Source: Gemmatimonadota bacterium (GTDB lineage Bacteria > Gemmatimonadota > Gemmatimonadetes > Gemmatimonadales > Gemmatimonadaceae). From it: DNA of 42,134 nt. Shown one piece after another: positions 30-25,709 of the stretch. A program made the translations under genes and the position numbers. Below the pieces are notes generated by a model, which saw nothing but the letters and a program-made list of their open reading frames with translations, did not search any database and was not told where the DNA came from. The stretch is taken from NCBI GenBank assembly GCA_021324635.1, contig JAJPIS010000119.1:1-42134 (forward strand), given 5' to 3'. Positions within the stretch are counted from its first letter, which is position 1. Each line of letters opens with the position of its first letter.

Positions 30-172
30 GGTGTCAGGGGCAATCGCGTCGCGATTGCCCCTGACACCATCCAAAAAACCCGTTCCATTGGTGGCCGCGG
101 GACGCGGCCGTCCCGGCATCCGTGCGGGATGTGGGTCGCGGGCGGCATGAATGCCGCCCCTACGACGGGGCG
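30..172 (+). repeat. Dispersed palindromic repeat, copy 1
   Basis: This copy starts with a perfect inverted repeat at 30-68: arms of 19 bases (ggtgtcaggggcaatcgcg at 30-48, its exact complement at 50-68) around one central base. A run of A follows, then ggtggccgcgggacgcgg at 90-107, then a second palindrome at 140-159 (gggcggcat, GA, atgccgccc), ending in ctacgacggggcg. The same order of elements recurs in copy 2, and the right part recurs inverted in copy 3. No open frame or transposase lies within it, so it looks like a non-autonomous REP- or MITE-like element. Confidence 0.85.
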
Positions 173-223
173 CGCACGTTTGCCGCGCGCGCGGCGGCAC
201 CCGCGCCCGTCGTTGCCGTTTCC

Positions 224-381
224 GGTGCAGGGGCAATTCGCGACGCGAATTGCCCCTGCACCATCAAAAAACCCCTTCCATTGGTGGCCGCGGGACGCGG
301 GACCCGCGCGAAATGCGGGGCCAGGCATCGGTGCGGGATGAGGGTCGCGGGCGGCATGAATGCCGCCCCTACGACGGGGCG
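224..381 (+). repeat. Dispersed palindromic repeat, copy 2
   Basis: This copy has the same layout as copy 1. A perfect 39-base hairpin at 224-262 has arms ggtgcaggggcaattcgcg (224-242) and its complement (244-262), with one central base. An A-rich spacer follows, then ggtggccgcgggacgcgg from 283, the palindrome gggcggcat-GA-atgccgccc at 349-368, and ctacgacggggcg. Compared with copy 1 the hairpin arms differ by one inserted and one missing T, and both arms changed together so the stem stays perfect. Confidence 0.85.
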
Positions 382-406: not shown

Positions 407-1822
407 TTACACGCCGTGCGCGCCGCCGGGAACGCCGATCTCGGTCATCTTCCGCAGGTCGAGGACCTGATCGATCTCGTCGGGGGGGAGCAGCCCCTCG
501 CGCCGCACGAGGTCGCGGATCAGGACATTCTCCTTGACCGACTCCTTGCTCACCTCGGCCGCGCGCGCGTAGCCGATCTGCGGCGCCAACGCCGTCGCGA
601 GCGCCGCCGAGCGCTCCACCCAGTAGGCACACTGCTCCCGGTTCGCCGTCAGCCCCGAGACGCAGCGCTCGGCGAGCACCCGCATGGCCGCCGTCAGGAT
701 CTGCCCGGCCAGCAGCACGTTGAACGCGATCACGGGCATCATGACGTTGAGCTCCAATTGCCCGTGCTCCGCGGCCGCCGCCACGGACGCGTCACAGCCG
801 ATCACCTGCAAGCACACCTGGTTGACCATCTCCGGGATCGACGGGTTCACCTTCCCCGGCATGATCGACGACCCCGGCTGGACAGCCGGCAGCAGGATCT
901 CGTCCAGCCCCGTCCGCGGACCGCTCGCGAGCAGGCGGAGATCGCTCGCGATCTTGCTCAGGTCGAGCGCCAGCACCTTGAGCTGCGCGCTGTAGGCAGC
1001 GACGTCGCCCATGCTCTGCATCAGCTGGACCCGGTCACGCCCCTCGCGAAGCTCGAGGTGACTGATCTCCCGGAGGTGACGCACCATGAGGCCCGGATAC
1101 TCGGGCTCGACGTTCACGCCCGTGCCGACGGCGCTTCCGCCAATCCCCAGGTCGCGCAGGAAATCGGCCGCCTGCGTCACGCGCCGGAGGTTCCGCTCCA
1201 GCGTCTCGCCGTAGGCCCGGAGCTCCTGACCCAGTCGGATCGGCATCGCGTCCTGGAGATGTGTCCGGCCGGCCTTGACCACACCGTCGTACTCGCCCCC
1301 CTTTTCCCGGAACGTCCGCGCCAGCGTCATGCCCGCATCCAGGAGCGGGCCGAGTTGCGCGAGGCCGGCGAGCCGGATGGCCGTCGGGATCACGTCGTTC
1401 GTCGACTGCGCCATGTTGACGTGATCGTTCGGGTGCACCGGCGCATACGTGCCCCGCGGACGTCCCAGCAGCTCGTTCGCTCGATTGGCCAGCACTTCGT
1501 TCGTGTTCATGTTGTGCGACGTGCCGGCGCCGGCCTGGTACACGTCGACCACGAACTGGTCCAGGTGCTGCCCGGCCAGGATCTCGTCGGCGGCCCGGAC
1601 GATGGCGTCCGCCCGCGACCCGTCCAGGCGTCCGGTCTCACGATGCGTCAGGGCGGCGGCCTTCTTGATCCAGACGGTCGCCGTCACAAACACGGCAAGC
1701 GGACGAAGGCCGCTGATCGGGAAGTTCTGGCGGGCGCGCTCGGTCTGCACGCCGTACAGGGCGTCGGCGGGAACGGCGAGCTCGCCCAGGGGGTCCTTTT
1801 CGGTGCGGGTCGGAGTGGCCAT
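407..1822 (-). CDS. aspA: Aspartate ammonia-lyase / class II fumarase family
   Basis: Cytosolic lyase of the aspartase/fumarase superfamily, 471 residues, the usual length. It would deaminate aspartate to fumarate and ammonia, or act as a fumarase. The superfamily signature GSSIMPGKVN is at residues 317-326 and contains the catalytic-loop serines. The substrate loop THLQDAMP follows residue 187. The stretch HPNDHVNMAQSTND (130-143) and the N-terminal DALYGVQTERA resemble aspartases more than FumC, where VNKSQSSND is usual. The ATG at 1822 lies 11 bases after the stop of the DUF4149 gene, so this is the last gene of the long operon. The aspartase/fumarase choice is inference; the superfamily is certain. 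Confidence 0.85.
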   Translation of the reverse strand: MATPTRTEKDPLGELAVPADALYGVQTERARQNFPISGLRPLAVFVTATVWIKKAAALTHRETGRLDGSRADAIVRAADEILAGQHLDQFVVDVYQAGAGTSHNMNTNEVLANRANELLGRPRGTYAPVHPNDHVNMAQSTNDVIPTAIRLAGLAQLGPLLDAGMTLARTFREKGGEYDGVVKAGRTHLQDAMPIRLGQELRAYGETLERNLRRVTQAADFLRDLGIGGSAVGTGVNVEPEYPGLMVRHLREISHLELREGRDRVQLMQSMGDVAAYSAQLKVLALDLSKIASDLRLLASGPRTGLDEILLPAVQPGSSIMPGKVNPSIPEMVNQVCLQVIGCDASVAAAAEHGQLELNVMMPVIAFNVLLAGQILTAAMRVLAERCVSGLTANREQCAYWVERSAALATALAPQIGYARAAEVSKESVKENVLIRDLVRREGLLPPDEIDQVLDLRKMTEIGVPGGAHGV

Positions 1823-19196: not shown

Positions 19197-20218
<1,022 letters not shown>

Positions 20219-20219
<1 letters not shown>

Positions 20220-25680: not shown

Positions 25681-25709
25681 CGCCTCGGCGCCGATCCGGC
25701 GCCGAGGCG
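25681..25709 (-). terminator. Terminator-like hairpin after the Ton operon
   Basis: A perfect 13-base-pair stem (25681-25693 with 25697-25709) with a three-base loop begins 3 bases beyond the stop of the second TonB-like gene, the last of the minus-strand Ton operon. On the minus strand it is followed by TGGTGTCG, so no true U tract is present. Confidence 0.6.

Follow-up and report, generated by a model that had tools for sequence, protein, structure and literature searches.

REP/RAYT systems are widespread, and the matching of palindrome arms despite sequence divergence is usually ascribed to selection. The pairing of GTAG-tagged REPs with a RAYT gene, the 'REPtron', has been described (Nunvar 2010, PMC2817692; Di Nocera 2013, PMC3733652; Corneloup 2021, PMC8266576). 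Complementary and compensatory changes in the palindromes are also already known. REP palindromes are preserved via complementary mutations, suggesting selection (PMC2817692), and compensatory changes on both sides of the hairpin are common in REPINs (Bertels and Rainey 2011, PMC3116915). Another route to matching arms is template switching, which homogenises arms and inverts spacers (PMC8604942) and makes paired changes in hairpins (PMC8794818). To this we add a species-specific array in which the tagged REP is joined by a separate, untagged 39-nt hairpin with perfect pairing, and a clean set of copies from one genome that differ by paired substitutions and indels and by flipped loops.

The window is a stretch of 42,134 nucleotides that makes up an entire contig (C55) of a Gemmatimonadota genome of 4.09 Mb in 127 contigs. 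At the contig start (1-376, minus strand), two GTAG-tagged REPs alternate with two hairpins. The left edge of this array is possibly cut by the assembly. The contig begins within the array, which may therefore extend further left. Read along the minus strand, one REP (349-372), whose end lies about 35 nt away from the neighbouring gene's stop codon, stands upstream of a hairpin at 224-262, and a second REP (GTAGGGGCGGCATTCATGCCGCCC, 140-163) stands upstream of a hairpin at 30-68. REP and hairpin are joined by a conserved spacer (69-139; second copy at 263-348, both minus strand). The spacer at 69-139 contains smaller palindromes (GGCCGCGTCCCGCGGCC; GCATCCGCACGGATGC) and a T-run (TTTTTTGGAT) beside the hairpin. 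The neighbouring gene (407-1822, minus strand) encodes a lyase of the fumarase/aspartase family (Lyase_1, FumaraseC_C), with the array directly following the stop codon. Elsewhere in the window, a lone REP with its spacer, without the 39-nt hairpin, is located between two convergent genes (20146-20219, plus strand).

The initial annotation had placed both hairpins exactly. Each 39-mer is a perfect stem with 19 of 19 pairs matched around one central base. The hairpin at 30-68 (minus strand, set relative to the upstream REP) reads GGTGTCAGGGGCAATCGCG-T-CGCGATTGCCCCTGACACC. It has GGTGTC arms (type T) and its loop on the minus strand is GAC. The hairpin at 224-262 (minus strand) reads GGTGCAGGGGCAATTCGCG-A-CGCGAATTGCCCCTGCACC, is oriented like the first and has GGTGCA arms (type A, the commonest type). 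As had been noticed, an extra T follows GGTG in the first hairpin and precedes CGCG in the second, and the opposite arm carries the matching A each time. The predicted single-strand fold is an 18-bp stem with a 3-nt loop, at about -24 kcal/mol per hairpin as single-stranded DNA (z about -10). Perfect short-loop stems elsewhere in the window reach at most 13 bp, and those in 40 Markov-simulated windows at most 12 bp. The next-longest short-loop palindrome is an intergenic, perfect 13-bp stem at 25681-25709, the sequence of which is unrelated to the hairpin family.

Two readings of the hairpin were rejected. It is followed by GGGAAC on one strand and by ATCCAAAAAA on the other, and no T-run follows it on either strand. 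It is therefore no intrinsic terminator, which would be a G+C-rich hairpin with a U-tract behind it. An Rfam scan of the window gave no match reaching the gathering score of any curated family, which argues against a known structured RNA.

The REP next to the hairpin, GTAGGGGCGGCATTCATGCCGCCC, is a GTAG-tagged REP in the accepted sense, a palindrome of 20-40 nt headed by GTAG bases that stay unpaired. Its stem is 8 bp long and leaves GTAG unpaired, and 96 of 115 sampled copies are identical. The stem hardly varies, so that this repeat gives no parallel test of arm copying. As expected of REPs, the system is abundant and intergenic: about 236 GTAG-REP sites (140 + 96) are found in the genome at up to 2 mismatches, and none of the 61 hairpin copies, gathered by pattern searches and by local scans of the stretches around the repeats, lies inside a predicted gene. 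Units are arranged as GTAG-REP, a spacer of about 77 nt and the 39-nt hairpin, in tandem, in one orientation and between genes. The array plan is R> H> R> and so on (R, REP; H, hairpin), often closed by an inverted R<, at the right end only. In nearly all arrays the hairpin is downstream of a GTAG-REP in the same orientation; the few copies for which the examined stretch contains no REP are on C5, on C63 and, as one pair, on C123. Of the two marks of a BIME, a mosaic of REPs with other conserved motifs and an alternating REP orientation, the arrays show the mosaic; their REPs are mostly head-to-tail, with the terminal REP inverted. Some arrays of this genome (G000) contain another tandem unit of about 60-100 bp (CACC GGGAACGGCAACGACGGG ... 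GGTGCCGTCG), which continues from the right side of the hairpin without further hairpins, for instance at C70:19555-19895 and C75:1854-1942.

The genome contains exactly one Y1_Tnp gene (C75:2458-2961, 168 aa), its sole IS200-like transposase. The protein scores 28 bits against PF01797 (cut-off 23) and 79.2 bits (E 2.9e-22) against NCBIfam NF047646 (REP_Tyr_transpos), 0.8 bits under the cut-off of 80. An HVH motif and a C-terminal Tyr region are visible in its sequence. The locus (C75:1661-3154) reads R> H> R> R> rayt R<, the same plan as the other arrays, so that the gene is flanked by two inverted REPs. By these sequence features, it is a predicted REP-associated tyrosine transposase (RAYT/TnpA-REP). 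Around the locus (L046, C75:1018-4239), one side bears a putative gene that looks ParA-like by eye, and the other a putative DNA-methylase-like ORF with low-complexity repeats (ACGCACTCGACGCACTCGACG...).

The hairpin core was found in none of 59 relatives searched, and the GTAG-REP in none of 148, two same-genus genomes included. On this survey, both repeats are species-specific and the congeners have neither. Among 84,980 named species, a set that may leave out the window's own genome, the core matched only 11 single palindromes in scattered, unrelated taxa, which we judged to be unrelated. On contig C44, comparison with two congeners shows an upstream gene matching at about 76% and no repeats; synteny is lost beyond that gene, so this empty-site comparison speaks for the absence of the repeats only. 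RAYT homologues occur in 17 of the 148 other relatives searched. Many of them are flanked by species-specific palindromes of their own, mostly GTAG-tagged (e.g. GTAGGGGCGCAGCATGCTGCGCCCC). One same-genus genome (G002, locus L077) has a RAYT homologue with an inverted hairpin pair (GGSGGCCGTTC.GAGAACGGCCSCC, at 1330-1353 and 2031-2054) whose 5' neighbour resembles GCAGC, not GTAG, possibly a different head motif within the genus. At another RAYT homologue (L087), palindromes GGTGCCGCGC..GCGCGGCACC without a GTAG head, at 1348-1369, 1954-1973 and 2026-2047, are candidates for another REP tag.

The two forms seen in the window did not arise as independent local events, as one might have read the initial annotation. 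Each recurs in the genome, type A (GGTGCAGGGGCAATTCGC) in 26 copies, 22 of them perfect over 18 pairs, and type T (GGTGTCAGGGGCAATCGC) in about 11, and the contrast is therefore one between two repeat subfamilies. Besides these two main types there are several rarer ones, with GGTGCC, GGTACC, GGTGGC or GGTGCCGGGGG; they also include a form with TAAT, one with five G and a few others. The claim that pairing is kept while the arms change holds across the family. In the 23 distinct hairpins without gaps, pairing holds in 97.8% of cells. Double-changed cells, which count copies and not independent events, number 15, against 2.7 in shuffles (0 of 500 reach 15) and 0-3 in slid controls. Changes on both sides occur at 4 pairs; pair 7 shows all four Watson-Crick combinations (A-T, G-C, C-G, T-A) and pair 5 three (T-A, C-G, G-C).

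Paired changes also include indels. Types A and T differ in this way, and the copy at C76:6725 has five G opposite five C. At C113:8596 the same extra base is present in one arm only, as expected of an intermediate. Loops vary freely. The 13 distinct triplets include 5 pairs that are reverse complements of each other (e.g. GAA in 7 copies and TTC in 8), more than under two null models (P 0.0007 and P 0.024). Both loop orientations occur within the same flanks. Since the flanks keep their orientation, we read these loops as inverted, the GAC/GTC 'inversion' being also explicable as a single base change.

Mostly unpaired arm changes, named beforehand as an outcome that would speak against conserved pairing, were not what the genome contains: 46 of the 61 copies are perfect over 18 pairs, and the 15 with unpaired changes are each single-copy. 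The four arm types with more than one copy are all perfect, whereas none of the 15 imperfect arm pairs occurs twice (Fisher p 0.012 when the imperfect types are taken as 13). One unpaired copy (C125:252) joins an arm of GGTACC type to one of GGTGTC type and looks like a recombinant. Hairpin type shows no link to similarity of the left flank, nor does A-versus-T type follow flank similarity; four arm classes show a weak link to the right flank (p about 0.01). We read this unlinking as shuffling among arrays. Because hairpin type and flanks are essentially unlinked, a flank tree does not reveal how many paired changes were independent. The tree is itself poorly supported (10 of 56 inner branches firm), and we therefore claim no event count.

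We favour, with a probability of roughly 0.7, the view that the hairpins are a module of a species-specific, non-autonomous family of REP/BIME kind, that the single RAYT is the cognate enzyme, and that the arms are matched by template-switch copying together with preferential spread. As to which process makes the paired changes, we infer the following course. The RAYT or its ancestor would have spread the arrays as single-stranded DNA. When the hairpin is single-stranded, or extruded in replication, the polymerase may switch template between the arms. Such a switch would give a mutation in one arm its partner in the other, and the loop would sometimes be inverted as well. Perfect hairpins would be preferentially amplified, leaving mismatched ones as single dead copies, and recombination among arrays would move hairpin types between flanks. 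The 39-nt hairpin, which lacks the GTAG head, is itself no GTAG REP; we file it only as a module of REP-containing arrays, and it may be a passenger rather than a RAYT substrate. No case of transposition or excision was observed. On the copies compared, template-switch arm copying with preferential spread of perfect copies probably best explains the arm matching. Paired indels and loop inversion, both of which are observed, follow directly from template switching, and selection or preferential spread is also needed because only perfect types are multi-copy. Of the two mechanisms first suggested for these hairpins, arm copying thus fits the paired indels and inverted loops better, while selection, or preferential spread, may act beside it.

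A different view is that selection on the fold alone keeps the arms matched, either as a DNA cruciform or as an RNA stem that is bound by protein or protects mRNA 3' ends, compensation arising in two ordinary steps. The stem is strongly conserved compared with the spacer, covariation exceeds the controls, and both the pairing of REPs and the frequent compensatory changes of REPINs provide precedents (PMC2817692, PMC3116915). The position of the hairpins would suit such a role: they are intergenic, often right after stop codons, and few face divergent promoters. Where both neighbours are known, 14 intervals are convergent, 15 same-direction and 5 divergent (14 vs 5, p 0.06). Two-step compensation, however, predicts neither paired indels nor inverted loops. 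Moreover, 15 of the 61 sites retain a mismatched copy, and a site can thus do without the structure. For RNA in particular, one-sided changes show no wobble enrichment on one strand, no Rfam family is matched and no U-tract follows the hairpin, which leaves RNA-level selection on structure, one of the suggestions of the initial annotation, without support. We regard selection on the fold alone as unlikely.

The 39-nt hairpin could instead be a mobile palindrome in its own right. It would then represent a second REP family, its transposase extinct or unseen, that entered an ancestral REP array and spread with or without it. It has no GTAG head (its 5' neighbour is GGAT or GGAC), is unlike the cognate REP, and for the most part neither flank predicts its type. 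Against independence, the left flank is constant (50 of 50 left motifs are accompanied by the hairpin), as is the orientation. Neither an empty left site nor a copy in foreign sequence was seen, and nothing thus points to independent movement. We consider this origin improbable.

A bolder form of the arm-copying idea makes copying part of the life cycle of the RAYT-linked element. The hairpin would be kept perfect actively, through a folded single-stranded intermediate in which each passage re-templates an arm and flips the loop. We give this transposition-coupled version only a small chance of being right. Assembly artefact, or chance palindromes, has next to no probability: about 20 arrays sit at contig ends, where the repeats broke the assembly, but the hairpins recur on dozens of contigs as many distinct copies with differing arms, loops and unique gene flanks, and the simulations gave no stems of such length.

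The 61 copies of the hairpin, with paired substitutions and indels, a one-armed intermediate and flipped loops, make selection versus template-switch arm copying testable within one genome. They also carry a warning, in that covariation in intergenic hairpins need not imply a functional RNA.

Compared with studies of quasipalindrome correction (PMC7202029, PMC8794818, PMC8604942), the family shares arm homogenisation, paired changes and inversion of the loop (spacer); here these are read from repeat copies within a genome, there from observed mutations or a dated phylogeny. With GTAG-REP/RAYT systems it shares a short palindrome headed by GTAG, a species-specific sequence, intergenic copies in the hundreds and one Y1/HUH transposase gene between inverted REPs. 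Unlike in those systems, each unit has in addition, about 77 nt past the REP in the downstream direction, an untagged, perfect 39-nt hairpin whose orientation is fixed. The mosaic REP arrays with conserved spacers, some bounded by inverted REPs, and the compensatory hairpin changes recall BIMEs and REPINs (PMC3116915). In contrast to these, the REPs are mostly head-to-tail, with an inverted REP at the end only, and the strong hairpin lies within the spacer and is not built from two REPs. Anabaena GTAG-15 and Halothiobacillus CGTC-1 (PMC3733652) resemble the present family in that a REP is regularly associated with a second, longer palindrome. There, a REP dimer is located inside the palindrome, whereas here the palindrome is intact and located downstream of the REP.
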